Shown here: piece after piece, positions 1,918 to 62,864 of the stretch
How the letters are laid out: every line of letters starts with the position of its first letter
How positions within the stretch are numbered: position 1 is the first letter of the stretch
Assembly (NCBI RefSeq): GCF_000702725.1
Contig: NZ_JNJI01000003.1
Location: 1-64,000 of the forward strand
Source of the DNA: Mesoplasma photuris ATCC 49581
Lineage (GTDB): Bacteria > Bacillota_I > Bacilli_A > Mycoplasmatales > Mycoplasmataceae
Direction of reading: 5' to 3'
DNA: 64,000 bases
Program-made: the position numbers and the translations under genes
The notes under the pieces: generated by a model
Databases searched by the model: none
Seen by the model: the letters and a program-made list of their open reading frames with translations, nothing else
Told to the model about the DNA's origin: nothing

Positions 1918-2700
1918 ATGAATAAATATAATTTAATATCAAAACTTCAAAATAATATAGAAACAAATGATTCATCAATAAATTGCAATGTATCAAAAGT
2001 TTTATTAGATAATTTATATGATATATCTAAATTAACGATAAACAACTTAGCAATACTTTCGAATTCTTCTACTTCAGCAATCGTAAAATTTTGTAAACAA
2101 ATGGGTTTGGAAGGATATAAACATTTAATTCAAGTTTTAATGTTTGAAAATTCAATTATCAACTCTCACTTAGCACATAAAAAAGAATTTAAATATGAAA
2201 TGTGTGATAGAGATTTTTTAAATGCTTATCATAATTTAATTATTGATAATCTTGATTATATTAAGAAGAATAGTGAAAATTCTTTATTTCAAACTAAAGA
2301 AAAAATTGTTAAAGCAAGAAAAATCTTTTTGTTCGGAAAAGGGGCAAATCTAAATGTATTATCAATTTTTAATAATTATTTATTAAAATTGGGATATTGA
2401 GTATTTTATTCAAGAGATTTAGATGTTCAGTATAGCTATCTTGAACAAGCTGGAAAAAATGACTTATCTTTTATATTTTCATATAGTGGAATGACTGAAG
2501 AAATGATTAATGTTAACAAAAAGCTAGTTAAGAATAATTGCGACGTTGTATTAGTAACGTCTAATTTGTTGTCGCCAATAATAAACGATGACACTATTGA
2601 TATTATCGTTTTAAATAATGAAGAAGTTATGGACAAACAAACAAATTCGACTATGTCATTTGTGTATATTGTTATGCAACTAATTTATTTAATTTCTTAA
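1918..2700 (+). CDS. RpiR-family regulator (module 1)
   Basis: 260 residues. The N-terminal HTH_6 domain (about 1-75) has the recognition-helix pattern SSTSAIVKFCKQMGLEGYK typical of RpiR/MurR regulators. The C-terminal part (about 110-250) is a SIS sugar-isomerase fold with FLFGKGA and FSYSGMTEE, the phosphosugar-binding loops. Such proteins repress or activate nearby catabolic genes in response to a phosphosugar or related ligand. It sits just upstream of the MalY-RidA-flavoprotein-symporter cluster in the same orientation, so that cluster is the likely target. One of five RpiR genes in the window. Confidence 0.88.
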
Positions 2701-2835
2701 TCAGTAAACAAATTTCCAATTTTAAAAATAATTTACACATTATTTTTTTTATAAAAAAATCTATTTTTGAGATTAATAATATATTTGAAAAGAAGAAAAT
2801 ATATTTTAATTTAGTTTATAGAATGATCATTGTAA

Positions 2836-2852
2836 GCAAAATTTAATTTGGC
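2836..2852. promoter_or_regulatory. Candidate operator palindrome upstream of module 1
   Basis: The 237-bp gap 2701-2937 holds no gene. Within it a 17-bp imperfect palindrome, GCAAAATTTAATTTGGC, matches at 7 of 8 arm positions and overlaps a TTGGCA that could be a -35 box. It is a plausible binding site for the adjacent RpiR protein, but AT-rich DNA yields such symmetry by chance. Confidence 0.3.
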
Positions 2853-2937
2853 AATTCTAATTAAATTAATAAATATATAAAAATAGATATCTAAAATAAA
2901 GTGTATTTTCGACTTTAGAAAGGATGTGAAATTATAT

Positions 2938-4134
2938 ATGTGAAAAATTAGGCAAGGATTTGAACAAAAAAGATGAGATATAGCAGAAAATGAAAATAAA
3001 TATGGAATCAAAATTGATGATAGCTATATTCCATTGTGAATTGCTGATTCAGATTTGCCATTACCAAAAGAAGTAGTTGATAAAATTGTTGAAAGAGCTG
3101 CTTTCCCTTATTATGGTTATCAAAGTATGAGACCAGAATTTATCGAAGCAATAGTTAATCATACTAAAAAAACTAAAAAAATAGATATCACTATTGATAA
3201 TTTATTTTTTACACCCGGAACAGTATTTACAGCTTCTACAGTCATTCAAGCAATGACTAAAGTTGGCGACAAAATTATGATGAGTTACCCGATGTATGGA
3301 CCAATATACGATAATGTCGTTAATTGAAAAAGAGTTCCACTAATGGTTCCTCTTAAAAAAGAAAATAACAAATTTGATTTAGATTTAGATTTAATTGAAC
3401 AAAAAATTAAAGAAGAAAAACCCAAAATGTATATCATTATAAACCCAATGAATCCGGGAGGAAGAATTATTCCAAAAGCAGACATTGAAAGACTTCTTAA
3501 AATACTTAAAGAAAATAATGTCTTTTTATTCTCTGATGAAATTCATGGAGACATAACATTATTTGACAATGAAACAATTTCATTTGCTCAATATATGGAC
3601 AAATACGACAATATAGTTGTTGGAACTTCTTTGAACAAAACCTTTAATTTAGCAGGTATTGAAAATGGTTGAGGAATTGTTAAAGATATAAAAATGAAGA
3701 AAAAACTGATGGAGATTATTGAATTAAATCACTTACCTTCAGAACCAAATATCTTTGCTCAAGTATCTTCAATTGCTGTGATTAATCATGGTCAAAAATT
3801 CTATCAAGATTCGAAAAAAATTTATGAAAAGAACTTTTTATATATCCAAAAATACTTGAAAGAAAATACACCTGAGTTAGAACCCCTTGATTCTGAAGCA
3901 ACATTTTTAATCTACATAGACTATAGTAAAACTGGAATTTCAGAAGAAGACTTTTTTAAACTAATGACACATGAAGCTAAAGTTTTGATTCAATGTTCAA
4001 ATGAATTTGTCAATCCTGGTGGAGTATATTTCAGAATTAATTTAGCAACTAGTCCTGAAATAATTGAAGAAGCAATTCATAGAATTTCTTCAGTTATTAA
4101 TAAACACTTGAAAGGAAAAAATAATGAAAAATAA
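2938..4134 (+). CDS. MalY/PatB-type PLP C-S lyase or aminotransferase (module 1)
   Basis: 398 residues, full length for the MalY/PatB branch of class I/II aminotransferases, which cleave cystathionine or cysteine S-conjugates to pyruvate, ammonia and a thiol via 2-aminoacrylate. Landmarks in order: WIADSDLPLP near the N-terminus, NPMNPGG, SDEIHGD, the PLP lysine in SLNKTFNLAG (about K234), and FRINLAT with the carboxylate-binding Arg. I chose ATG 2938 although the AGAAAGGA site is 13 nt away; GTG 2926 is in frame but lies almost on the ribosome site. The end overlaps ridA by 11 bp. The cystine-type symporter downstream suggests cystine or cystathionine as substrate (inference). Confidence 0.85.
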
Positions 4135-4504
4135 AGTAATAATAGCAAAAGATGCTCCAAAAGCAGTAGGACCCTATTCAGCAGGAGTGGTTACTGTTCA
4201 AGGTATTCTATATATTTCTGGTCAATTACCAATTGACCCTAAAACAGGAGAAATGGTAGAAAAAAATGCAAAAGCTCAAACTTTACAATCTCTTAAAAAT
4301 GTTGAAGCAATTTTAAGAGCTAATGACATGACCCTTCAAAATATTGTAAAGACAACTGTGTTTCTTGCTGATATAAAAGATTTTGCAGATATGAATGAAG
4401 TTTATGCAGAATTTTTAGGTGATGTTAAACCAGCCAGATCTGCATTCCAAGTGGCTGCTTTACCAAAAGAAGCAATCGTTGAAATAGAAGTAATTGCAGC
4501 GTAA
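4124..4504 (+). CDS. ridA: RidA/YjgF enamine-imine deaminase
   Basis: 126 residues, the standard length of RidA, which hydrolyses the reactive 2-aminoacrylate released by PLP beta-eliminating enzymes. GPYSAG, YISGQLPID and PARSAFQVAALP are family hallmarks; the Arg of PARSAF is the substrate-binding residue. Its start overlaps the lyase stop by 11 bp, so the producer and the detoxifier of aminoacrylate are translated together. First of three RidA copies in the window. Confidence 0.95.
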   Translation: MKNKVIIAKDAPKAVGPYSAGVVTVQGILYISGQLPIDPKTGEMVEKNAKAQTLQSLKNVEAILRANDMTLQNIVKTTVFLADIKDFADMNEVYAEFLGDVKPARSAFQVAALPKEAIVEIEVIAA

Positions 4505-27440: not shown

Positions 27441-28184
27441 ATGGATATAATTCTTAAAAGAATAAATAAAATCATTGCTGATGGTACAAACGGAGATACT
27501 AATGTATCAATTGCAAAATTTATTTTAGATAATTTAAATTATGTTTCTGCACATAAAACATCTGAAATTGCAGATAAATGTAATGTGGCACCCTCATCAA
27601 TTATTAGATTTTGCAAAATTATTGGTTTGGAAGGAATTAACGAACTTAAATTTATAATTAAAAAATCAAGAGATAGCATAAAATTAAGTATGGAATATGA
27701 TGAATATTTTGAAAAATATTTAATTGCAAAAAATAATTCAGCAGCACTACTAAATGAAAATTTTTTAGATATTAGAGAAAACATAATTAGAATGTTTGCT
27801 AAAAAAAGAAATATTCATATTTTTTGTTTTAATATAGCTTTTTTTGCTACAAAAGGATTTGTTCAAAGGATGAGAAAAAAGCAATATAGTATTTTTTTAG
27901 AAGATGATATTTCATCAATTCAATCTTATATTGATGTTGTTAAAGAAGAGGATTTAGTAATTTTTGTGTCACTTTCTGGAGAAAATCATCTTCTTGAAGG
28001 TTTTTCAAAAAGCCTAGAAAATAAATGTGAAACATTTGCAATATTGGGAAAAGATACCGAATTTAAAAATGTTGTAGATGAATATTTTATTTTAGAAAAT
28101 ACTGAAGAAGAATTTTGAGACCTATTTTCTATAAGATCACAAACTCTTCAACAATTTTGAGATTATGTATTTCTTGAATCATAA
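27441..28184 (+). CDS. RpiR-family regulator (module 2)
   Basis: 247 residues. HTH_6 domain with CNVAPSSIIRFCKIIGLEG in the first 75 residues; the SIS half (about 105-240) has HIFCFNIAFFATKGF and FVSLSGENHLL. It precedes the fructose-type PTS and MalY-type enzyme, separated by a terminator, and is the likely local regulator. Confidence 0.87.
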
Positions 28185-28214
28185 AATCCATTCCAGTTTT
28201 GGGAATGGATTTTT
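28183..28214 (+). terminator. Terminator after the module 2 regulator
   Basis: AAATCCATTCC pairs with GGAATGGATTT, then T. Confidence 0.85.
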
Positions 28215-28266
28215 AAATGTACAATCTTTATTGTTCATAATTTATAAAACATATTAAATAAAATTA

Positions 28267-28285
28267 GAAATAAATTATTTATTTC
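28267..28285. promoter_or_regulatory. Perfect 19-bp palindrome before the fructose-type PTS gene
   Basis: GAAATAAATTATTTATTTC is symmetric at all nine arm positions and lies between a possible promoter (TTGTTC 28231, TTAAAT 28254) and the AGGAGG of the PTS gene. It is a candidate operator for the RpiR protein encoded next door. Confidence 0.4.
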
Positions 28286-28301
28286 GAACATAGGAGGTTA
28301 T

Positions 28302-30401
28302 ATGTCTAATTTCAAATATGGATCTAAAATTTTTAATGAAAATTTGATAATAATCGATTCTGAATCTAAAACAAAAGAAGAAGCACTTCATGAGCTTTCT
28401 GTTTTAGGTAAAGAAAACGGTGTAGTTTTAAAAATTTCTGATTTAGAAAATGGATTTAAAGCTAGAGAACTTGAAGGTTCTACTGGTTTAGAAGACGGTT
28501 TTGCTATTCCTCATGCAAGAATTTCTCAAATTAAAGAAGCGAGAATTGCTTTTATTCGTTTTAAAGAAGAAATCGAATGAGAAACACTTGATAATAGCAA
28601 AGTCAAAGTAGCAATTGCATTAATGGTTCCTGATGATGATAATTCAAAAGAACATATTACATTAATGTCAAAAGTTGCTCAAAAACTTATCGAACAAGAA
28701 ATAAAAGATAACTTAAAAAAAGAAGTAAATGTAGAAAAAATAATTGATCTACTTTTCAATGAAGAACCTATAAAGAGAGATGAAAAACAAACTGAAAAAC
28801 AAGGATATCTAATTGCTATCACAGGTTGTCCAGCCGGAGTTGCTCATACTTATATGTCTGCTAAAAAAATTGCAGATTATGCTACAGAAAAAGGATGACA
28901 AGTAAAAGTTGAAAAACAAGGTGCTAACGGGATCGAAGATAGATTAACTTCTGATGATGTTAAAAATGCGAACGCATTATTAATTTCTGCTGATATTAAT
29001 CCTAGGGATATAGAGAGATTTGAAAATATTCCTACAATTAGAACATCGGTCGCAGAACCTCTACATGATATGGATAATATTTGAAATAAAATAATTAATA
29101 TTAAACAAAATGTAGATGATCAAAAAATTCCTACAAATCAAAATGCTTCAAAAGAAGAGTCTTTAAATTTTAAAGCAAAATTTAGAAAAGAAGCAAAATC
29201 CTTAAAAGATGCTATTCTTACAGGTATTAGTTTTGTTGTTCCAGTAATTGTTGCAGGAACAACCATTGTAGCATTGATTACCATTATTACTCAAATTGCT
29301 GGAGCAGATAATATTGCTCAAAATGCAAATTGATTAAATGAATTATCTAGTGTTGCTGGTCAGTCATTGAGTGTTTTATTAGCACCAATATTAGCAGCTT
29401 ATATTGCTTATGCGATGGCTGATAAACCTGGTTTATTCCCGGGATTCTTAGGTGGACTTGCATGTAATAATATTGTCAGACAAAAATCGATTATTATTGA
29501 TGGTGAAGAAACTATAGTTGATGTGGTTAACGGATTAGGTTTCTTAGGAGGTCTAATAGTTGGTATACTTGTTGGTTATATGATGATTGCATTTAAAAAA
29601 TGAATGGTAAGTAAAAAATTCCAATCAGTTTTAACTTGATTCGTGTATCCTGTATTGTCTTCATTAATTATTATTTCATTAGTATTATTTGGTATTGGAA
29701 CTCCGATTGCAATTGTGGTTGAAGCAATTTTTGACGGCTTAACTAAATTGCAAGAATCTGGATTTGCAGCAATTGCTGGAATCATAGTTGGAATGCTTTG
29801 TGTATTTGATTTAGGTGGTCCAATGAATAAAGTGGCTTGAGCATTTGGATTTGCTTCCTTTACACAAGCTCAAGCAACTGGAAATATGGCTTTATTAGTA
29901 CCATATACAGCCTTTTGAGCTGCAGGAATCGGTACTGGATGAACAACTACATTAGTTACTACTTTAGGTAGAAAATGATGTACAAAAGAAGAAAAAGATG
30001 CCGGTAAAATTTCTTGAGTTATGTCATCTTTAGGAATAACTGAAGGAAGTATTCCATTAATGCTTTCTGATCCATTTAAAGTAATTCCAGGATTCTTAGT
30101 TGGAGGAGCAGTTTCAGGTGGATTAACATATGCACTAGGTTTAGGTTCAACAATTACAGGTGGAGGATTTATAACTGTTGCTGGTGTTACTTCAATTACT
30201 GGATCAATGGCTGTGTGAGCTGCAATATTAGCATTCATAGGTATTGCTATATTGGGTTCATTAATTTCAACAGCAATTATTATCGGATTGAAAGCACTAG
30301 GAGCAAATCCTGAACTAGAAGAAAAAATTAAAATCAAAACTGTTAAAGTTTTAACATTTGGTAAAGTTAATTTACCTAAAAAACAAAATAAAATTAAATA
30401 A
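28302..30401 (+). CDS. Fructose-family PTS EIIABC permease
   Basis: 699 residues, domain order A-B-C. EIIA phosphohistidine H71 is in FAIPHARI; EIIB phosphocysteine C176 is in ITGCPAGVAHTYMSA; EIIC runs from about residue 300 with ADKPGLFPGFLGG and FDLGGPMNKVAWAFG, typical of fructose permeases. It would import and phosphorylate a fructose-like substrate. No 1-phosphofructokinase accompanies it; instead a MalY-type enzyme and RidA follow, so the substrate may not be plain fructose (inference). Promoter region carries a palindrome. Confidence 0.9.
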
Positions 30402-30417
30402 AAATAGGAGGTGTTTT

Positions 30418-31593
30418 ATGGATAAAAAATTCGAAACAGCAGTTAATAGAGAAAATAGTTTAGAAAGAAAGTCTGATAAAAAGTATCTTTCAAATAACTA
30501 TCCAGTTAGTTTAGATAAAAAAATTATTAATAGTTCAATTGCTGATCTTAATTTTGAAACACCTTACGAAATTTGTGAAGCTATCAAAAAAAGAGCTAAT
30601 ATTAGAAGTTTTAGTTATACATATATTAGTGACGATAGTCTTTCAGCAATTCAAAGTTGATACAAAAATGAACACAAATCAGATATAAATTTAACTGAAA
30701 TAAAATTGGTTCATGGAACTGTTAATGCAATGTATCAAATAGTGCAAAGTTTTACTAATGTTGGAGATTCAATACTTATTCAAACTCCGATCTACGAACC
30801 TTTTGCTAGATGTATTTTACATAATGATAGAAAAATCGTTGAAAATAAATTAATTTTTGAAAATAACACATACAAAATTGATTTCAAAAAACTAGAAGCA
30901 TCAATCAAAGAAAACAATATTAAATTATTTTTATTCTGTAATCCTCATAATCCTGGTGGTAAAAATTGAAACAATGAAGATTTAAAAGAAATTATCGATA
31001 TTTGTTTAAGAAATAATGTAATATTATTTTCTGATGAAGTTCATAGTGATTTAGATTATTCGAATAATTTTACAACCTTATTAAAATATAAAGAAATACA
31101 TAAATTATTAATAATTGCCAATTCGCCTAACAAACCGTTCAATCTTGGGGGATTAAAAGGATCTTACTTAGTAATAAAAAATCCTAATTTAAAAAAAATA
31201 ATTGATCAAAATTATGAAAAGAATTCATTAACTTCTCCAAATGTTTTTTTACAACCAGCCATTATTGAAGCATACACAAATCCTAATGTTAAGAAATGAT
31301 TAGATGATCTTAAAGATATTATGAAAAGTAATTTTGAGTTTTTTAAATCAGAAACATCTGAAATGAAATTTGAAATTTTTGAGAGCGAATCTTCATATTT
31401 ACCATGAATAAAATTTAATTACGAAATTACAGATGAAGAATTTAAACAAGCTTGTTTTAAAGAAAATTTAATTTTTAATTTCTATGATAATTTTTATGGC
31501 GCTGAAAGAAAATGGTTTAGATTGAATACTGGTTGTCCAAGAGAAGAAATTGAGTTAACAATAAAAATATTAAAAAATATTTTTGAAAAATAG
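30418..31593 (+). CDS. MalY/PatB-type PLP enzyme (module 2)
   Basis: 391 residues. Same architecture as the module 1 enzyme but strongly diverged: SIADLNFETP, NPHNPGGK, SDEVHSD, PLP lysine K239 in NSPNKPFNLGG, and FRLNTGCP. AGGAGG precedes ATG 30418, 16 bp after the PTS gene. The E. coli malXY operon is a precedent for a PTS permease coupled to a MalY C-S lyase. Actual substrate unknown. Confidence 0.82.
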
Positions 31594-31603
31594 AAAGAAA
31601 AAT

Positions 31604-31981
31604 ATGAAAGTAATTAATACAAAAAATGCACCTCAAGCAATTGGTCCATACGTACAAGCTATAAAAATTGAAAATGGTACTTTATATACTTCTGGTCAAT
31701 TAGGATTGAACCCAGAAACTATGAAATTACCTGAAACAATCGAAGAACAAACAAGAAATATTTTCAGTAATATAGATGCTATTTTAGCTGAAGCTGGATA
31801 TACTAAAAATGATGTTATAAAAACATTAGTTCTTTTAGACGATCTAAATAATTTTTCTAAATGTAATGAAATTTATGCAGAATATTTTGATAAAAATAAA
31901 CCAGCAAGAAGCGCATTTCAGGTAGCTGCATTACCTATGAATGCTAAAATAGAAATTGAATTCATAGCCTTTAAAAAATAA
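31604..31981 (+). CDS. RidA/YjgF enamine-imine deaminase (copy 2)
   Basis: 125 residues with GPYVQA, TSGQLGLN and PARSAFQVAALP. It starts 10 bp after the MalY-type gene. An in-frame TTG 21 bp upstream lies inside that gene and lacks a ribosome site. Expected to clear 2-aminoacrylate made by its neighbour. Close in sequence to the next RidA gene. Confidence 0.93.
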   Translation: MKVINTKNAPQAIGPYVQAIKIENGTLYTSGQLGLNPETMKLPETIEEQTRNIFSNIDAILAEAGYTKNDVIKTLVLLDDLNNFSKCNEIYAEYFDKNKPARSAFQVAALPMNAKIEIEFIAFKK

Positions 31982-31991
31982 ATCATTTTCT

Positions 31992-32031
31992 ATTATGCAA
32001 AAAAATTGTTTTATTATTTTTTATAGCGCAA
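31992..32031. promoter_or_regulatory. 40-bp shared regulatory element, copy A
   Basis: ATTATGCAA, 4 nt, ATTGTT, 15 nt, GCGCAA. The same words with identical spacing occur at 33354-33393 in front of the divergent rpiR/MalY pair of module 3. It lies 50 bp upstream of the third RidA gene, suggesting that gene belongs to the module 3 regulon. Confidence 0.6.
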
Positions 32032-32081
32032 CAATTAAATATAAATTTATAAATTATTAAAATATTTATATAGGAGAAAAT

Positions 32082-32456
32082 ATGAAAATAATCAATACAA
32101 ATAAAGCGCCTGGAGCTGTAGGTCCCTATGTACAAGGTATTCAAATAGAAAATGGAACATTATATTTATCTGGTCAGTTAGGTTTAGATTATAAAACTAT
32201 GAAAATGCCAGAGACTATTGAAGAACAAACTGTAAATAGTTTAAAAAATATTGAACAAATTTTGAATGAGGCTGGATATAAAAAAGAAAATATTATTAAA
32301 ACATTAGTATTATTAGATGATATAAATGATTTTGCAAAAGTTAATGTTATTTATTCTGATTTCTTCGGAAATCACAAACCAGCTAGAAGTGCATTTCAAG
32401 TTGGAGCATTACCATTAAAAGGAAAAATTGAAATAGAAGTAATTGCATATAAATAA
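32082..32456 (+). CDS. RidA/YjgF enamine-imine deaminase (copy 3)
   Basis: 124 residues, very similar to the copy just upstream (shared GPYVQ, IENGTLY, SGQLGL, PETIEEQT, KTLVLLDD), so a tandem duplicate. It retains PARSAFQVGALP. A 100-bp gap containing a regulatory element separates it from copy 2, implying its own promoter. AGGAG precedes the ATG. Converges on the module 3 rpiR gene with a shared terminator. Confidence 0.93.
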   Translation: MKIINTNKAPGAVGPYVQGIQIENGTLYLSGQLGLDYKTMKMPETIEEQTVNSLKNIEQILNEAGYKKENIIKTLVLLDDINDFAKVNVIYSDFFGNHKPARSAFQVGALPLKGKIEIEVIAYK

Positions 32457-32480
32457 AAAAAACCATTTCTGGTTTTTTTA
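32455..32480. terminator. Bidirectional terminator between ridA copy 3 and rpiR
   Basis: AAAAAACC-ATTTCT-GGTTTTTT works on both strands between two convergent genes; it overlaps the stop codon of the minus-strand gene. Confidence 0.85.
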
Positions 32481-33335
32481 TTTGTTAAATTTATAATTAT
32501 ATTGTTTTCAAGATTTTGATGTTTCAGCAAAAGAGATAACGGCTTCTTTTTTATTTAAACCTAATCTATTAGAAATAGAATCAATTAATAAATTTGTAAT
32601 AACTAATAGAGATATTTTTGAGTTAAGTGAGTAAAAATCGTCATCCTTGTGCATTGTTTTTAACAATATTTTATGTTTTGCATTTTTATAATATTCGCTC
32701 TTAGAAGATGAAGTAATTAGTATAATGTCTATATTTCTTGCTTTTAATTCATCTTGAATAAAACATATTTCTTTTGTTGTTAACGTTTTACTAATTATTA
32801 TTCATATGCTATCTTGTACATCTTCTTTTTTATATTGACTGAATACTTTTAATGCATCATAAAAATTTTCTAAATTATATGAATTAATTTTCATATCTCT
32901 GAAATATTTGTTTAGTTGATTACACATATATTCAGAAAAACCAATTCCATATAGATATATGGTTTTTCCAGAAGTTATTTCATCTATTATCAAATCAATT
33001 TCTGCTGGATTTATATTATTCAAAGTCTCATCTATTGCAAATTTATTTTGAAATTTAAAGTTATTTATCAATTCTTCAATTTTATCATAATGATCTAAAT
33101 GTTTTATATCTTTAATTTCTTCAACTTTATAAAGGATGTTATCTCTAAAATCTTTATAACTTTTATATCCCATTCTAATTACTGCACGGGATACGGAAGA
33201 TGCATTTACAAAAAGCAAATCAGCAATTTGATTAATCGTTTTATCTTTGAAAATTTCGGGATTTTCATTTACTAGTTCTATAATTCTATATTCAGTAGTA
33301 TCTTTTTTAAATTTTTCATTAAGTAATATTTTCAT
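32478..33335 (-). CDS. RpiR-family regulator (module 3)
   Basis: 285 residues on the minus strand. HTH_6 domain with INQIADLLFVNASSVSRAVIRMGYKSYKDF; SIS part with YLYGIGFSEY and a following IIISKTLTTKEI in which the Trp before it is TGA. I chose the ATG at 33335 because GGAG lies 8 nt upstream; an in-frame TTG at 33362 has none. Divergent from the MalY-type gene, with the 40-bp element between them. Confidence 0.86.
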
Positions 33336-33353
33336 GTTTTGTTCTCCAAGTTC

Positions 33354-33393
33354 ATTATGCAATTAAATTGTTAAAAAAACAACAAAGGCGCAA
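33354..33393. promoter_or_regulatory. 40-bp shared regulatory element, copy B
   Basis: ATTATGCAA, 4 nt, ATTGTT, 15 nt, GCGCAA in the divergent promoter region of the module 3 regulator and MalY-type gene. It includes the 11-bp palindrome CAATTAAATTG. Matches copy A at 31992-32031 in words and spacing. Confidence 0.6.
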
Positions 33394-33445
33394 ATGAGTT
33401 ATAAAAAAAAGCTTTTTCATATAATAAAAATGAAAGGAGGTAATT

Positions 33446-34612
33446 ATGGAAAAATTAGATAGAAAAAATAGTTATGATAGAAAATGAAATATGGAACATT
33501 TGCGAGAGAAATATCATGTAGAAGATAATGTCATACCTAATCATGTTGCTGATTTCGATTATCCAACACCAGAATTTATTTTCGACCAGATAAAAGAAAG
33601 ATGTAATTTTAAATCTTTAAGTTATTTTTCAGTAGATGAAGAATTTTATGATGCATTTAAATTTTGATATAAAGAAATGAAAAATATAGAAATTGAAAAA
33701 GGATGAATAAATTATTCATACGGTGTTTTCTTTTCTATGGCAGCTATTTTAAATACGAAAACAAACATAGGTGATTCAATTTTGATAAACACTCCATGTT
33801 ATAGTCCTTTTGTTAGAGTTTGTTTATTAAATGATAGAAAACCAATTATGAATAAATTAATTTTAAAAAATAATAAATATGAATTGGATTTGTATCAAAT
33901 TGAAAAAGATATCATCGAAAACAATATTAAGTTATTTTTATTTTGTAACCCATTAAATCCAACGGGAAGACTTTGAACACTAGAAGAATTAAATGCAATT
34001 GCTTCAATATGTAAAAAACATAATGTTATTTTAGTTTCTGATGAAGTGCATGGAGATTTAGTATCTTATAAAGAAGGATTTAATACAGTTTTGAAAACTA
34101 ATGAAGAATATAAAAATAATGTAATAGTTTTTTCATCAGCTACAAAAGCCTTTAACATTGGTGGAATGTCTAGTTCTTATATGATATCTAAAAATATTGA
34201 TTTGCTTAAAGAACTTTGAAGCTATCAAGAAAAAATATGATTAGGAAATTCAAATGTATTTGGTGTGGAAGTTATGAAAGCTGCATATACTCAAAAAGGA
34301 ATCGAATGATCTAAAGAGATGTCGGTACATCATAATAATATGTTTGAATTGACTAAAAAATTCGTTGAAGAAAATGATTTGCCCTTGAAAGTATTGGATT
34401 TACATGCTGGCTTCTGTGTTTCGGTTGTAGTTGAAAAACACTTATCTGAATTAGAAAAATATAAAAAGGAATTTATTAAAAATGGTTTACTAGTTAGGTT
34501 TAGCAATGAATTCTATGACTACGATAATTTCTGATTTAGAATCATATTATCAACTGACGAAAAAACTATAAAAGAAATATTAGAACGAATTAAAAAAGTT
34601 TTTAAAAAATAG
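33446..34612 (+). CDS. MalY/PatB-type PLP enzyme (module 3)
   Basis: 388 residues. HVADFDYPTP, NPLNPTGR, SDEVHGD, PLP lysine K234 in SSATKAFNIGG, and FRIILST mark the same fold family as the two other copies, again well diverged. AGGAGG precedes ATG 33446. The EIIC gene begins 8 bp after its stop, so enzyme and permease are co-transcribed. Confidence 0.82.
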
Positions 34613-34620
34613 GAGGAAAA

Positions 34621-36219
34621 ATGTCTGATTTAAAAAATACAACTCCTAACGACAATAAGAAAAAGGTTAAGAAATTTGTCGGAAAAAGAGGAAAAAATTC
34701 GGAAAAAAAACTGAGTCAAAAAATCGAAGATACAATGCTACCGATTTTTGCAAAAGTTGGTTCATTTCCGATATTGGTTACAATTAGAGATGCGTTTGCT
34801 TTAATGATTCCAGTTATCATAGCAGGATCATTAGGTATTCTTGGTAGTGCGTTTTTATTTGGTGGTGGAGCTACAGGGTCATCACTTTCAACCTCAGTTA
34901 TTGGTTGAATTGCTAAATGATCTGGATTTGTAGAAACTTCTACAGGAGATGGTGGAACTACTTTATGAGCATTACAAGGTGCGTTCGCTGATGTTGCTGA
35001 TATTGGTAACAAATTATTTTCAATCATCAATACTGCGACAATGGGAGCATTAAGTTTATATGCATCATTCTTCATTGCTTGAAGATGGGCTGCTCTTAAG
35101 GATTCTCAAAATCCAATTTTAGCTGGACTAACAGGTTTGGCTTCATTCCTTATAATCACAGAAGTAAATCCTTTCTTCTTTGATGCAACAGGATTATTAG
35201 CAACATTATTAATTTCTTTTATTACTTCTCAATTATTTATTATTTTTGAAAGAAGTAAAAAGATTCAAATTAAATTACCTTCATCAGTTCCACCAACTGT
35301 TTCAAAGGGTTTTGCCGCACTATTCCCAATTGTGTTTGTATTATTAATTGTTGCATCACTAAATACTATTGCTTGATCAATTGGTTTATATGCTAATTTA
35401 GATATTGAATCTAAAGGTGAAGTAGTATTCGCTGCAGGAGAATATGGTTTTGCAGGTTTATTTTTTAGATTTATATCTGCTCCATTCTTAGCTTTTGCTT
35501 CATCATCAAGTGGTGGTTTAGGAATTGGAATGTTCTATATTTCAATGTATGGGTTATTCTGATTCTTCGGAATTCACGGTGGAAATGTTCTGAATGGGGT
35601 TTTTTACCCAGTTTGATTCGGACTTATTTCAACAAATGCACAAGCTATTGCGGATGGAATGTCTGCAACAGATCCATCATTGGCGGTATTTAATATGGCA
35701 TTTTGAGAAACATATGTCATGACAACAGGTTGAGGAATAACGGGAGCTATGGTTCTTGGAACAATAATTTTTTCAAAACAACAGAAATATAAAGAATTAA
35801 ATAAAATTTGTGGTCCAGCAGCTATATTTAATATTAATGAACCAGTTACTTTTGGATATCCATTGATGTTAAATCCTATTCTGGGACTGGCCGCTATTCC
35901 AGTAATGCCTATTTTCACAATAGTGGCATGATTATTTGTAGGTCCTCTAGGACTAGTATCTAAATCTTATATTTATGCTCCATGAACAATGCCTGTTGGT
36001 ATTGGAGCATTATTCTCATCTGGAATGGATTGAAAAGCAGCGGTTCTAGCTATAGGAATATTTGTTGGAGCATTCATATACTATATTCCATTCATTTTAA
36101 TTAATGAAAAATATGAAAATAAATTAGCGGCAGCAGCATTAAGTAAGCAAGAACCTAAAGAAAGTATTTCTAAGGAAGCTGAAGATATTTTTGCAGCAGC
36201 AGCAAAGAAAGGTAAATAA
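34621..36219 (+). CDS. Lactose/cellobiose-family PTS EIIC permease
   Basis: 532 residues, about ten hydrophobic segments. FAKVGSFPILVTIRDAFALMIPVIIAGS at the N-terminal side, FFGIHGGNV, and FNINEPVTFGYPLMLNP are signatures of lactose/cellobiose EIIC proteins. A Lys-rich N-terminus and an Ala-rich C-terminal tail flank the membrane part. The stop overlaps the EIIA start by one base (TAATG). Confidence 0.92.
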
Positions 36220-36533
36220 TGTTAAATTACGAAAAAATTGCATTTGGAATAATTTCAAGTGCTGGTTCAGCTAAATCATATGCATTTGAAGCTATTTCAG
36301 AAGCTGAAGATGGAAATTATGACCAAGCAAATAAATTAATTGAACTTGGACGAGAAGATATCATAAAAGCAGAACAAGTTCATATGGAAACAATTTCATT
36401 TGAAGCTCAAGGTAATAAATTAGAATTTTCGATATTATTAATGCATGCTGAAGATCAAATGATGAGTGCACAAATGTTATTGGAAATGGCTGAAAAATTT
36501 ATTAATGTTTATGAAAAAATGGAGGCTAAATAA
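36219..36533 (+). CDS. Lactose/cellobiose-family PTS EIIA
   Basis: 104 residues, three-helix EIIA-Lac protein with phosphohistidine H76 in LMHAEDQMMSAQ. One-base overlaps (TAATG) with both neighbours. Confidence 0.95.
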   Translation: MLNYEKIAFGIISSAGSAKSYAFEAISEAEDGNYDQANKLIELGREDIIKAEQVHMETISFEAQGNKLEFSILLMHAEDQMMSAQMLLEMAEKFINVYEKMEAK

Positions 36534-36850
36534 TGGCAACATATAATATAACTTTAGCTTGTGCATTTGGTGCAAGCACATCAAATATAGTAAAAAAAAT
36601 GAGAGAGGTTGCTGATGAAAACAATATCGATGCAGATATTCAAGCTATACCTACTACTGAAGCAATTAAAAGAGTTTCAGAATTTAGTATAATTTTATTA
36701 GGACCACAAGTTAGATATGAATTGAAGCGTTTCAAGAAAGAAGCTGATAAATTCGATATCCCAGTAATTGATATCCCGAGTGATTTGTACGGTGATAACG
36801 ACGGTAAAAGTATTTTGGCTTTAGCTCTTAAAACCTTAATGAACAAATAG
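36533..36850 (+). CDS. Lactose/cellobiose-family PTS EIIB
   Basis: 105 residues, EIIB of the lactose/cellobiose family with phosphocysteine C10 in LACAFGASTSNIV and LGPQVRYEL, which are conserved. With the preceding EIIC and EIIA it completes a permease for a beta-glycoside-like substrate; no phospho-beta-glycosidase is in this operon. Confidence 0.94.
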   Translation: MATYNITLACAFGASTSNIVKKMREVADENNIDADIQAIPTTEAIKRVSEFSIILLGPQVRYELKRFKKEADKFDIPVIDIPSDLYGDNDGKSILALALKTLMNK

Positions 36851-36857
36851 GAGAATT

Positions 36858-37367
36858 ATGAAATTAAAAAATATAGTTATCAATGATAAAGATTTTATAA
36901 ATGATCAAAGATATTTAAGTTTATTTGATGATAAGAAAAGATTGTTAAATTATAATAAGAAACTTAAAATAAAAAATAATTTAAGTAATGATAAATCTTT
37001 AGAAGAACTATGAAATCTTATAGAACTTTTTATAACTAAAGAGTTGAGAACTGTTAAAACAAATGAAAAAAAGTTAATAGTAGGAAATGACGTTTATTTA
37101 AAAAAGGCTAAACATATTGTTTATAATGTAATTGAAAATAATAACAACAATATAATATTAAAAACAGAATGAAATGATATAACTTATTTCATTCAATATA
37201 TTATTAGAAAAACTTCTTCATCAAAAACTATACTATCAATTTCTGAAATAGCAGTATATCCATATATAGTTTCTGGTATAAATGGAGACAAAATTAAAGC
37301 AAAAAATAGACAGTCTTTTAAAAGTCTTTGAAAAACCCTTGATAAATATATAAAAAATAATTTTTAA
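36858..37367 (+). CDS. Hypothetical protein ending the module 3 operon
   Basis: 169 residues with TGA Trp codons; AGGAG precedes ATG 36858, 7 bp after EIIB. Rich in Lys, Asn and Ile, no signal peptide or membrane segment, no family recognised. Operon position suggests a role linked to the permease or its substrate. Confidence 0.7.
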
Positions 37368-38695: not shown

Positions 38696-40177
38696 ATGAA
38701 AGCAGTAATGATAATGTTTGACACTTTAACACGAAAATTTTTACCAAACTATGGAAATGATTGAGTTAAAGCTCCAAATTTTGAAAGGTTAGGTAAAAAA
38801 ACAATAACCTTCGAAAATTTTTATGCTGGTAGTATGCCTTGTATGCCGGCTAGAAGAGAAATACACACAGGTAAATATAACTTTTTACATAGAGGGTGAG
38901 GACCACTCGAGCCATTTGATAAATCAATTTTTGATTTAATGACTGAAAAAGGAATATACACTCATTTAATAACAGATCACTCTCATTATTTTGAAGATGG
39001 TGGAGCAACTTATCATAATCGTTATAGTACTTGAGAAGGTTACAGAGGACAAGAAGGCGATAGATGGGTCCCAAGAGATAGCGGCAAATCCGATATAAGC
39101 AATAACTCTTTAAATAAAAAAGGTATCTCATGAGAACAACACTTTGCAAATAGAGAAAGAATGCAAGAAGAAAAAGATTATCCTAGTGTACTCACTATGG
39201 AGTCTGGATTAGACTTTATCAAGAGACACAAGGATTTAGATGACTGATTTGTACAAATAGAAACTTTCGATCCGCATGAGCCATTCCTTGTTCCAGATGA
39301 ATATAGAGTATTGTATGAAAAAGTTATTAGTGATGACTTACCATTTTTCCCATTATATCAACATTTACCAGAAGGATATGATGCAAAACAAGTTGAACAA
39401 ATGAGGAAAGAGTATGCAGCATTAATTACAATGGTTGATAAATATTTAGGTAAAATATTGGATTACTTCGATGAAAATGATTTATGAAAAGATACAATGT
39501 TAATTGTAAATACTGATCATGGTTTTTTACTAGGAGAACATGATTTTATTGGTAAAAATATAATGCCATTTTTTGATGAAATAATACACACGCCATTTTT
39601 CTTACACGTCCCAGAATATGCAGGTTTGGATGGTACAAGAATTGATGCCGTATCTCAAACAATTGATATTGCACCAACGATTTTGGAATACTTCAAATTA
39701 GAGAGAAAAGAAGGTTATGTAAGTAATGGAAAATCATTACTAAATCTCATTAAGGATGAAGAGTTAAAAAACCACGACATAATTGTTTTTGGTGAAAAAG
39801 GTGGATTTGTTTCTATGTATGATGGTAAGTATATTTTTATAAAATCATCTGTAAAAAGTGACAACTTACCTGTAACATTACAAACGCTTTCATTTACAAA
39901 TATGAGGGGATTTATTTCTGAAGATGATATTAAAACCATGAAGCTAATTCCTGGTTCAAACTTTTCAAATCAAATACCAATGGTAGAAATTAATTTATCA
40001 AAAAACCACAAAGATACATTTAAATTTGGTGATTTTTTATTCGATTTAGAAAATGATCCGGAACAAAAAAACAATATTAAAGATAAAAAGCTAATTGAAT
40101 TAATGAATAAAAAATTAAAACAAAAATTAATTGAACTTGAAGTTCCGAACGATGAATTTAAGAGGCTAGGTTTATAA
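38696..40177 (+). CDS. Type I (formylglycine) sulfatase, cytoplasmic
   Basis: 493 residues, alkaline-phosphatase-superfamily sulfatase. Metal ligand region MFDTL (D9), formylglycine site SMPCMPARRE with C49 in C-x-P-x-R, THLITDHSHY, FDPHEPF, and NTDHGFLLGEHD (D274, H275) occur in family order. There is no signal peptide: the catalytic core begins at residue 1, so it acts in the cytoplasm. GGGAGG precedes the ATG. The maturation enzyme follows with a one-base overlap (TAATG). A phosphonate monoester hydrolase also uses this motif and is the main alternative. The sulfated substrate is presumably delivered by the PTS downstream. Confidence 0.88.
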
Positions 40178-41037
40178 TGGAAATGATTTTAATAAAAGGT
40201 GGAAATTTCAGAATGGGCAAAAAAAGTGATGTAGGTAAAGCTACAGATCTTGAATGACCAGAGCAAAATTTATCTGTAAAAGATTTTTACATGGATACAA
40301 CACCAGTAACAAATGAAGAATTTAGTAAGTTTATCAAAGAAACAAATTATGTGACTGATGCTGAAAAGATTGGCACATCATATGTATTTAAATTATTGAT
40401 TGATGAAAATAAACGTAATGAACTTGATAAATTAAATGTAATTAACTGATGATATGACATTAAAGGTGCAACATGAAAAACTCCAGAAGGTCCAAATACA
40501 AACATAGATTCTAGAATGGATCATCCCGTTGTTCATGTGTCAAGAAATGATGCATTAGAATATTGCAAATGAGCGGGGAAAAGATTACCGACTGAATTTG
40601 AATTTGAATATGCAGCACGTGCAGGTTTGATCGACAAAAACTTTCCTTGAGGTAATGAAGTTAAAAATGAAAAAGGTGAATGACTATTAAACATTTGACA
40701 AGGAAAGTTTCCTATAACTAACGATGTTGAAGATGGTTATCTAGGAACCGCTCCAGTAAAAGCGTTCCCACCAAATAATTTTGGTTTATATCAAATGGTA
40801 GGAAATGTATGAGAATGACAATTAAATAGAAGATGAATTCCTTTGGATAAATTTAAAAATTTTGAAATAGAAAAAGAATGGGATAAGAATAATAAAATTA
40901 GTAATGATGAATATGCATTACGTGGAGGCTCTTTCTTATGTACTGATGATTTCTGTGCAAGATATAGAGTTTTCTCAAGAAATGGAAATTCAGCAAAATC
41001 CACATCTAGCAACTTAAGTTTTAGATGTGTGAAATAA
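40177..41037 (+). CDS. Formylglycine-generating enzyme (FGE/SUMF1 family)
   Basis: 286 residues, full-length FGE-sulfatase domain. IKGGNFRMG and [10 protein letters not shown] lie at the N-terminal side; [26 protein letters not shown] and RGGSFLC follow. The two copper-binding cysteines of aerobic FGE are present with C-x4-C spacing (C255, C260) in [17 protein letters not shown]. It oxidises the sulfatase cysteine to formylglycine. The one-base overlap with the sulfatase makes the pair a dedicated activation unit. Activity should need oxygen and copper. Confidence 0.9.
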
Positions 41038-41054
41038 ATAAAGGAAAAAACTAT

Positions 41055-43595
41055 ATGATATTTAAGATATATGCTCCCGCAAATGGTGAAGCAAAATCAG
41101 TTGATCAATGTAGCGATCCTGTCTTTGCCGAGAAAAATCTTGGTGATGGTATTGTTTTTGTACCAACAAATAATTCATTTAACTCACCATTAGATGGTGG
41201 AAAAGTTGAAATGATTTTTGATACAAAACACGCTATATATTTTGATAATAATAACATTAAAGTTTTAATGCACATTGGATTAGACACTGTGAATTTAGAA
41301 GGAAAACCTTTTAATTTAAAAGTGTCAGTTAATGACAGTGTTAAACTTTCAACTCCTATTGTCGATGTTGATTTAGAAGAAATTAAAGCTAATAACTTAA
41401 AGGTTGAAACACCGATAGTTATAGATCAAACAAATATAAAATCAATGAAATTAGTAAATTCAAAATTTGGATTAGTAAAACAAGGCGATTTAATTGCTGA
41501 ATTTGAAATTGAACTAAATGTTGAAGAAATTAAAACTTCATCAATTGAAACTTCTCAAATGGGAGATAAGTATGAGATAAGTGCAAAAAAATATCTAGAA
41601 GCAGTTGGAGCAAATAACTATTCTGATGTATTTAATTGTATGACAAGATTAAGATTCAATATTCATAATAAGGATCTTGTTGATGTTGATGCAATTAAAA
41701 AAATGGAATTAACAAAAGGCGTAAACTGAGCTGGAAATCAATTACAAATTATAATTGGTGGTGAAGTATCAAAAGTTAGAGCAAAAGTGTCTAGCATTAC
41801 TATGGCTCAAAACTTTGAGATTCATGGAAAAGTCAAAAAAAGTGTAAAGGATAAAATATTTGGATTCCTTAGTGGTGTTCTTGCTCCGAACGTAATACTA
41901 TTAATTACGGTGGGGATGTTACAAGCATTAAATGCACTACTAGTCAATACAAATGTAATACCAGCAGTAAATGATGGTAATCTAGCAACTTCAAACGTAT
42001 TTGCTGTGATATTCTTTATTATGTCAAAAGTTGGATTGAGTTTACTAGGGGTATCATTTTGTTACTCAACAACAAAATATCTGGGTGGTAATCCAATTTT
42101 AGGACTATTAATTGGATTAACTCTTGCATCAAGATTCTTGATGCCGGTTGAACCGGTTGAGCCAAATGAATATGAATTTGGTAAATATATTATCAATAAA
42201 GAATACAACATAAAGGGATGATTGCTATTTGAAATAGGCGATTTCCCTATAGTTGTTAAATCGTATGAAAACTCAGTTTTAACATTTATTGTGGCAGGTA
42301 TTGGATGTGTTTATTTAGATAAATGAATTCAAAAATGAATGCCATCAATTGTTGATATTATATTTAGACCAATGATAATTTATTTAGTAATAATTTTATC
42401 TTCATTCTTTATTTTAGGTCCAATCTTATCATTTATAGAATTTGGTATTGTTCAATTTATGAGTGTAATTGAGCAGATCCCAGGGGGAATAGGTGTAGGA
42501 ATATTTGGATTCTTATGACCATTACTAGTTTTAACAGGAATGCACGTATCGGTTCTTGCAATGATTACAATGCAAATTACCGAAGGTGGAAGTAGTGTTA
42601 TGTTAATGGCTTGTTCAGCTAACTGAGCAAATTTAGGATGTTGTATTGGAGTAATAATTGCAACAAGAAACTCTAATACAAGACGAATTGGACTGGCGGC
42701 TTTCCCTGCAGCTATATTTGGGGTATCAGAACCAATTTTATATGGTATCTCAGTTCCAAAAGTTAGACCATTCTTTTTGGCAATGTGTGCTAATGGATTG
42801 AATGGATTGCTAGTAGGAATCTTTGGTATAGATGCAGATATATTCTTACAAGGTGGAATTTTACAATTAATGGCTCTTCATGATAATCTTGAAATCTTAT
42901 GAGCATTAATGATCTGAGCTATTGTATTCAGTGCAGCGTTAGGATTATGTTTAATTTTCTACCGTGATTATGAAAATCAAGTTTATGAAACAAAAAAATC
43001 AATTAAACAAATGAAAAAATATTCAAAATTCTTTGAAGGTAATACTGAAACATTTGATACTGAATCTGTAAAACTTTTGGCTACAGTAAAAGAAAATAAA
43101 AAAGCTTATGCTGATTATGATAAATATCTTTCATCTATACAAAAATTTGAATCAAAAATATCTGTACTAGGTGAAAAAGAAAACAAAAAGAAAAAAGATT
43201 TATATACTAAATTACAAAATATGAAAAGAAAACCTGAAAAATTTGATGAATCTCTAATTAAAGCTGCTACAGATAATTACAATAACTTTTCATTACAAAA
43301 TGAAATACAGAATGTTATTATTGAAATGACAAATTATAAAAAAAATAATATTAATATTGTAGATACTTACAACGATGCATTAAAAGCAAATGAAAATGCA
43401 ATTTTAAATGTGTTGAATGCATACTATCCATCTACTATATATAAACAGTTTGATCAATACAAAAATAACTTTTCAAATGCTGTTCATAATGTAGAAATAG
43501 AATATGGAATCTCAGATAAAAAGACAAATTTATTTGATAAAAAGGAATTCAAAAAGCATATCGATAAAAAAAGTAAAGAATTTATAAATAAATAA
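41055..43595 (+). CDS. PTS EIIABC permease, glucose/sucrose superfamily, with coiled-coil tail
   Basis: 846 residues, domain order A-B-C. EIIA-Glc-type domain with H73 in LMHIGLDTVNLEGK; EIIB with C195 in FNCMTRLRF; EIIC from about 260 to 640 with FGVSEPILYG. Residues about 645-846 form a charged, helical tail not found in usual permeases. AAGGAAAAA precedes ATG 41055, 17 bp after FGE. In this operon it probably imports and phosphorylates the sulfated sugar (inference). Confidence 0.9.
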
Positions 43596-52507: not shown

Positions 52508-52527
52508 TACTTTCCAAAAAGTAAAGT
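52508..52527. promoter_or_regulatory. Beta-glucoside operator, copy B
   Basis: TACTTTCCAAAAAGTAAAGT begins 3 bp after the rpiR stop codon and lies about 70 bp upstream of the EIIABC start. Same words and spacing as copy A at 51628-51647. Confidence 0.7.
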
Positions 52528-52549
52528 GCAATTTAAGTGCACTTTTTAA
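52523..52549 (+). terminator. Terminator or attenuator between rpiR and EIIABC
   Basis: AAAGTGCA-ATTTAAG-TGCACTTT followed by T. Its left arm overlaps operator copy B. Confidence 0.7.
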
Positions 52550-62733: not shown

Positions 62734-62747
62734 TTGTATATACAACT
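62732..62747. promoter_or_regulatory. TreR-type operator, copy 1
   Basis: AGTTGTATATACAACT, a perfect 16-bp palindrome overlapping the stop codon of the GntR gene. Confidence 0.75.
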
Positions 62748-62756
62748 ATTTTTAAG

Positions 62757-62785
62757 AAAAAGCACTGTATTACAGTGCTTTTTAA
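62757..62785 (+). terminator. Terminator of the GntR gene
   Basis: AAAAAGCACTGT pairs with ACAGTGCTTTTT; lies between the two operators. Confidence 0.88.
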
Positions 62786-62786
62786 T

Positions 62787-62798
62787 TTGTATATACAA
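62787..62798. promoter_or_regulatory. TreR-type operator, copy 2
   Basis: TTGTATATACAA, 67 bp upstream of the GH65 start, in its promoter region. The core is identical to that of copy 1. Confidence 0.75.
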
Positions 62799-62864
62799 CT
62801 TAATTAATTGAAAACATAATATTTTGGTACTTTATTTTATTAAATATGTATGTGAAAGGAAAAT

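Follow-up and report, generated by a model that had tools for sequence, protein, structure and literature searches.

SpNanR of Streptococcus pneumoniae, an activator of the RpiR family, binds a near-palindrome of 18 bp that precedes its promoters; a degenerate half-palindrome follows about 23 bp further on (PMC12713135). A tetramer is proposed to bridge both sites, and the half-palindrome is reported to be missing where activation is absent (PMC12713135). Most of the RpiR proteins studied are repressors, according to the authors of the SpNanR work (PMC12713135). RccR illustrates that a single RpiR protein can use arms at different spacings: one form of its site has a longer spacer, and its own promoter contains forms that overlap (PMC5489143). 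No RpiR site for the bacterial group considered here is described in the literature searched.

The genome of Mesoplasma photuris ATCC 49581 (778,966 bp in 10 contigs, 97% complete) contains a spaced element that can be compared with these sites. The window is the whole 64-kb stretch of DNA that was analyzed; statistics are based on its intergenic regions and on pattern searches across the genome. TGA encodes tryptophan in this organism: the genes include TGA codons and stay open when read with code 4. The window includes three PatB/MalY-type genes, each near an rpiR gene and PTS-type genes, and three modules that combine rpiR, PatB/MalY-type, and ridA genes with PTS genes nearby (1918-4504, 27441-31981, and 32082-36850). 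The genes and element copies in the region of module 3 are:

31992 to 32031, forward strand: element copy 1, ATTATGCAA-N4-ATTGTT-N15-GCGCAA, upstream of ridA3 (exact pattern match and statistics)
32082 to 32456, forward strand: ridA3 (Rid family), tandem duplicate of ridA2 (Pfam PF01042, NCBIfam TIGR00004, tree)
32478 to 33335, reverse strand: rpiR3, RpiR-family regulator with HTH and SIS domains, 285 aa (code 4)
33354 to 33393, forward strand: element copy 2, ATTATGCAA-N4-ATTGTT-N15-GCGCAA, between the divergent rpiR3 and malY3 (exact pattern match)
33446 to 34612, forward strand: malY3, PLP-dependent PatB/MalY-type C-S lyase-like gene (Pfam PF00155; NCBIfam PatB 245 bits, below the 340-bit cut-off)
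34621 to 36850, forward strand: lactose/cellobiose-type PTS genes IIC, IIA, and IIB, downstream of malY3

A gene for a 169-aa protein (36858-37367; NCBIfam without a match) closes the module 3 operon.

Both copies are exact in position and strand and share identical spacing, as the initial annotation had claimed, and its placement of them agrees with the gene map: copy 1 lies in the 100-bp gap from ridA2 to ridA3, and copy 2 in the 110 bp that separate malY3 (ATG 33446) from the divergent rpiR3 (ATG 33335, reverse strand). The further claim that the spacers drift holds for N15, which agrees at about 3 of 15 positions, but only in part for N4, whose last two bases are AA in both copies; the middle word is therefore really AAATTGTT rather than ATTGTT. 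The exact runs common to both copies are 9, 8, and 6 bases long.

Many unrelated copies had been named as grounds for doubt, and a genome-wide search for the spaced motif revealed no such crowd: the same two copies are found at 0 mismatches and are the only ones at up to 2. At 3 mismatches there is one more match, upstream of a DegV-like gene, which is taken as chance. Within the window, 2 matches occur at up to 3 mismatches versus 0 expected from shuffles, and modules 1 and 2 contain no copy at this threshold. The core TGCAA-N4-ATTGTT by itself is not unique (4 exact copies genome-wide); all but 4 of the first 30 core-site matches examined are in coding sequence, and the exact intergenic match on contig C2 is without GCGCAA.

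Chance resemblance in AT-rich intergenic DNA, or a promoter composition common to both regions, would account for the repeat with no regulator at all. Plain identity over the 40 bp is 26/40, a value reached by 182 of 2000 shuffled pairs and unremarkable in AT-rich DNA; the local ungapped score is still reached by 8 of 1000 shuffles (about 1%), and the pair was chosen by eye. The spaced-run statistic, defined as the sum of exact runs of at least 5 bases on one diagonal within 45 bp and compared with dinucleotide shuffles, runs counter to this explanation. The element pair scores 13.25, whereas the null has a mean of 5.4, a standard deviation of 1.0, and a maximum of 10.8, so that none of 3000 shuffles attains the observed score; the pair also ranks first of 1722 real intergenic comparisons in the window (next best 9.9). 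Since the 40-bp identity is unremarkable and the spaced-run score is extreme, the significance resides in the words and their register. With the element also unique in the genome and phased to a TAWAAT box, chance is a very improbable explanation. The words in fixed register, their uniqueness, and the same TAWAAT phasing make a common protein-binding site at the ridA3 and malY3 promoters, as the initial annotation had proposed, a well supported reading.

A structured RNA or riboswitch was rejected, as an Rfam search at E values up to 1 gave no match near either copy. A terminator was searched for, and none was found. Duplication of ridA as the source of the repeated element was likewise rejected. 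The ridA2 and ridA3 genes (31604-32456) share 68% amino acid identity and 73% DNA identity over 384 bp and are sisters in the tree (support 95/91); their similarity reaches no further than about 5 nt upstream of the start codon, which places the element-bearing region outside the duplicated block, and N15 agrees at only about 3 of 15 positions.

In Mollicutes, start-site sequencing defines the -10 box as TAWAAT, usually 6 nt before a start whose first base is G or A (PMC5138195). On this basis, the promoter features of the two leaders and of rpiR3 are:

31996 to 32010, forward strand: 15-bp pseudo-palindrome TGCAAAAAAATTGTT, copy 1, centre -67 from the predicted ridA3 start
32026 to 32031, forward strand: GCGCAA, copy 1, candidate half-site in which YGCAA of the left arm recurs 31 bp further on; centre -41.5
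32058 to 32063, forward strand: predicted -10 box TAAAAT of ridA3, the sole TAWAAT in the leader, 26 bp past GCGCAA
33354 to 33359, reverse strand: predicted -10 box CATAAT of rpiR3, overlapping the element, with TTGTTT at 33377-33382 (reverse strand) and a 17-bp spacer
33358 to 33372, forward strand: 15-bp pseudo-palindrome TGCAATTAAATTGTT, copy 2, centre -67 for malY3
33388 to 33393, forward strand: GCGCAA, copy 2, candidate half-site, centre -41.5 for malY3
33420 to 33425, forward strand: predicted -10 box TATAAT of malY3, the sole TAWAAT in the leader, 26 bp past GCGCAA

The distance from GCGCAA to TAWAAT is exactly 26 bp in both leaders, which occurs in 0.9% of shuffles, a probability to be read with care because the phasing was noticed before it was tested. 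The 68-bp composite of element and -10 box has only two occurrences in the genome. Transcription is predicted to start at A 32070 (ridA3) and G 33432 (malY3), giving leaders of 12 nt and 14 nt, respectively. Relative to these predicted starts, TGCAA-N4-ATTGTT (centre -67) and GCGCAA (centre -41.5) have identical positions in both promoters, and the -35 regions match TTGACA at 3/6 at best. On the reverse strand, CATAAT and TTGTTT likely form the rpiR3 promoter, which copy 2 would overlap. New in the present analysis are the fixed TAWAAT phasing, the predicted-start geometry, the overlap with the rpiR3 promoter, and the position of the element outside the ridA duplication.

The left and last words have YGCAA in common, in the same direction and 31 bp (about three helical turns) apart. 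The left word and the middle word point towards one another as CAAT-TAA-ATTG in copy 2 and as CAA-N5-TTG in copy 1, forming a short palindrome. An RpiR operator is expected to contain a palindrome of about 15-18 bp; copy 2 has TGCAAT-N3-ATTGTT, and copy 1 is weaker, both with short arms. The site may be composed of one full site and one half-site.

RpiR3 is a complete RpiR-type regulator. Its most likely start is the ATG at 33335, which has a Shine-Dalgarno sequence and leaves the element upstream; the mechanically called open reading frame (TTG at 33362) extends into the element. The SIS domain is detected at E 5.5e-10 and the HTH_6 domain at E=2.3e-5 (24.7 bits, below Pfam's cut-off of 28.3 bits). 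The structure model has a mean pLDDT of 83, and its best structural matches are Vibrio (Vv) NanR, Pseudomonas RccR, and pneumococcal (Sp) NanR; MurR is also matched. An operator of this family should have an HTH and SIS regulator encoded beside it, and rpiR3 occupies that position. The adjacency, the divergent layout, the pseudo-palindrome, and the intact HTH/SIS protein make RpiR3 a plausible binder.

Orthologous promoters bear on this assignment. RpiR3, MalY3, and PTS IIC were searched for in 60 genomes of the family and 298 of the order, and MalY3 also in genome contigs. The rpiR3-malY3-PTS module was not found in any of these genomes, and same-genus genomes lack it. The nearest RpiR3 relative has 32% identity, the nearest MalY3 relatives have 42% and no rpiR neighbour, and those of PTS IIC belong to different clusters. 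Two results count against an RpiR3 operator: the element is absent upstream of the nearest malY3 relatives (genomes G016 and G056, both without an adjoining rpiR), and RpiR3 relatives (25-32% identity) have no obvious similar site upstream of their own genes. As there are two sites only and orthologues are absent, the binder is assigned from location and architecture alone.

Several other candidate sites and loci are found in the window. The fructose-type PTS gene of module 2 is preceded by the near-palindrome ATGTACAATCTTTATTGTTCAT (28217-28238; centre 43.5 bp before a predicted start), a candidate RpiR2 operator. The module 2 order rpiR2-ptsFru-malY2-ridA2 is kept in other genomes of the family; a clear conserved operator was not found in the promoters of these orthologues, and a site like ATGTACAATCTTTATTGTTCAT is not evident upstream of them. 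The region 62734-62798 has a GntR-type gene on one side and the gene at 62850 on the other. It contains the perfect palindrome AAAGCACTGTATTACAGTGCTTT (62759-62781) with a copy of TTGTATATACAA on either side (62734 and 62787); both sequences are likely GntR-type operators. The palindrome-like AAAGTGCAATTTAAGTGCACTTT (52523-52545) precedes a PTS gene that follows another rpiR. Behind an rpiR, a sulfatase-like gene is followed by a formylglycine-generating-enzyme-like gene and a large PTS gene (38696-43595; names assigned from the sequence alone), possibly a locus for the uptake and desulfation of a sulfated sugar.

The element could instead be the common operator of another DNA-binding protein (e.g., the RpiR2 paralogue or a GntR-type regulator). 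Several RpiR paralogues are encoded within the window, ridA3 is directly downstream of module 2, and the near-palindrome before ptsFru2 also has CAAT...ATTGTT. Yet copy 2 lies in the divergent rpiR3-malY3 region, the usual spot for a local regulator's own site, and neither module 1 nor module 2 has a copy of its own, which leaves a different binder improbable.

That the element is the operator of RpiR3 in the ridA3, malY3-PTS, and rpiR3 promoters, activating the first two and repressing rpiR3, is somewhat likely. In this mechanism, an RpiR3 dimer would occupy the 15-bp pseudo-palindrome TGCAA-N4-ATTGTT at -67, while the second HTH of the SIS-linked tetramer would contact GCGCAA, 31 bp from the left arm and on the same face of the DNA. 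At -41.5, beside the poor -35 region, this contact would aid RNA polymerase. Binding of a phosphorylated sugar, imported by the PTS, to the SIS domain would be the trigger, and lyase, transporter, and RidA would be made together; RpiR3 positioned over its own -10 box would repress rpiR3. We infer the identity of the binder, the tetramer contact, the ligand, and activation in preference to repression.

The same operator and binder could also act in the classic manner, with the tetramer covering -67 to -41 and blocking polymerase at the promoter's upstream edge until a sugar phosphate releases it. Most characterized RpiR proteins do repress, and for MurR and Vv NanR binding to pairs of neighbouring sites is described (PMC12713135). 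Moreover, if the -10-like TATAAA words at 32040 and 33400 were used, GCGCAA would fall within the core promoter or adjoin it; these words are, however, at unequal distances from the element (8 and 6 bp), and if the TAWAAT boxes, which are equally spaced, serve instead, the main site at -67 falls upstream of the polymerase footprint. Poor -35 boxes also suit activation better. The site at -67, the half-site at -41.5, the weak -35 regions, and the equal -10 distance in two promoters together fit activation better than repression, and RpiR3 as a classic repressor is unlikely. The observation made in the initial annotation is right and statistically sound, and an RpiR operator with an activator-like layout is a reasonable reading of the sequence.

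Joint control of malY3 and ridA3 would have a metabolic context. Rid proteins remove 2-aminoacrylate, a possible product of cystathionine beta-lyase, and Rid genes cluster with cystathionine beta-lyase genes because both handle this compound (PMC4433059). Regulating the two genes together would accordingly be metabolically sensible. The malY1-ridA1 and malY2-ridA2 genes are adjacent pairs, while the module 3 operon is without a ridA; ridA3 stands apart and is joined to it by the common element. This arrangement suggests that every PatB/MalY-type lyase of the genome retains a RidA of its own, in the third case by way of common control. Because the same three-word site lies at the same distance from the -10 box in two promoters, a sugar-sensing RpiR probably controls a detoxifying RidA gene together with a C-S lyase/sugar-uptake operon that lies apart from it. 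The outcome would be a compact regulon in a wall-less bacterium: one regulator and two or three promoters. A more general proposal is tentative: a mollicute RpiR activator with a fixed palindrome-plus-half-site operator 26 bp from the -10 box, with the duplicated RidA recruited to the lyase-PTS module 3 by operator gain and not by operon fusion.

Compared with known clusters of RidA and PLP-dependent lyases, the module 3 link is a common regulatory element rather than one operon. The operators of HexR and RccR (TTGT-N7-8-ACAA and TGTAGT-N3 or N16-ACTACA; PMC5489143) resemble the M. photuris site in RpiR family and in a 15-bp pseudo-palindrome with a 3-bp centre; they differ in that the arms here are TGCAAW/ATTGTT, and the KDPG regulon is unrelated. 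A HexR operator was rejected, as TTGT-N7-ACAA occurs only in copy 2 (33368-33382) and the spacing is N21 in copy 1. For Escherichia coli MurR, a tetramer that spans two adjacent sites, 47 bp overall, has been proposed (PMC12713135); the element here covers 40 bp. MurR sites overlap the -35 and -10 boxes and repress, whereas here one of the two is a half-site and the element lies upstream. The SpNanR site has a different sequence, TCTGAAAGTACTTTTAGA, and precedes the -35 box by about 55 bp; the two regulators share only about 14% identity. Like SpNanR at nan operon-I and siaA, the M. photuris system combines an HTH and SIS regulator with a near-palindrome upstream and a half-palindrome nearer the polymerase site, and the arrangement recurs at two promoters that would be controlled together. 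Judged from the predicted starts, the main site precedes the core promoter, and the half-site lies between the main site and the -10 box. If the proposed operator is correct, it would add a second example of the activator layout that has been proposed for NanR of S. pneumoniae.
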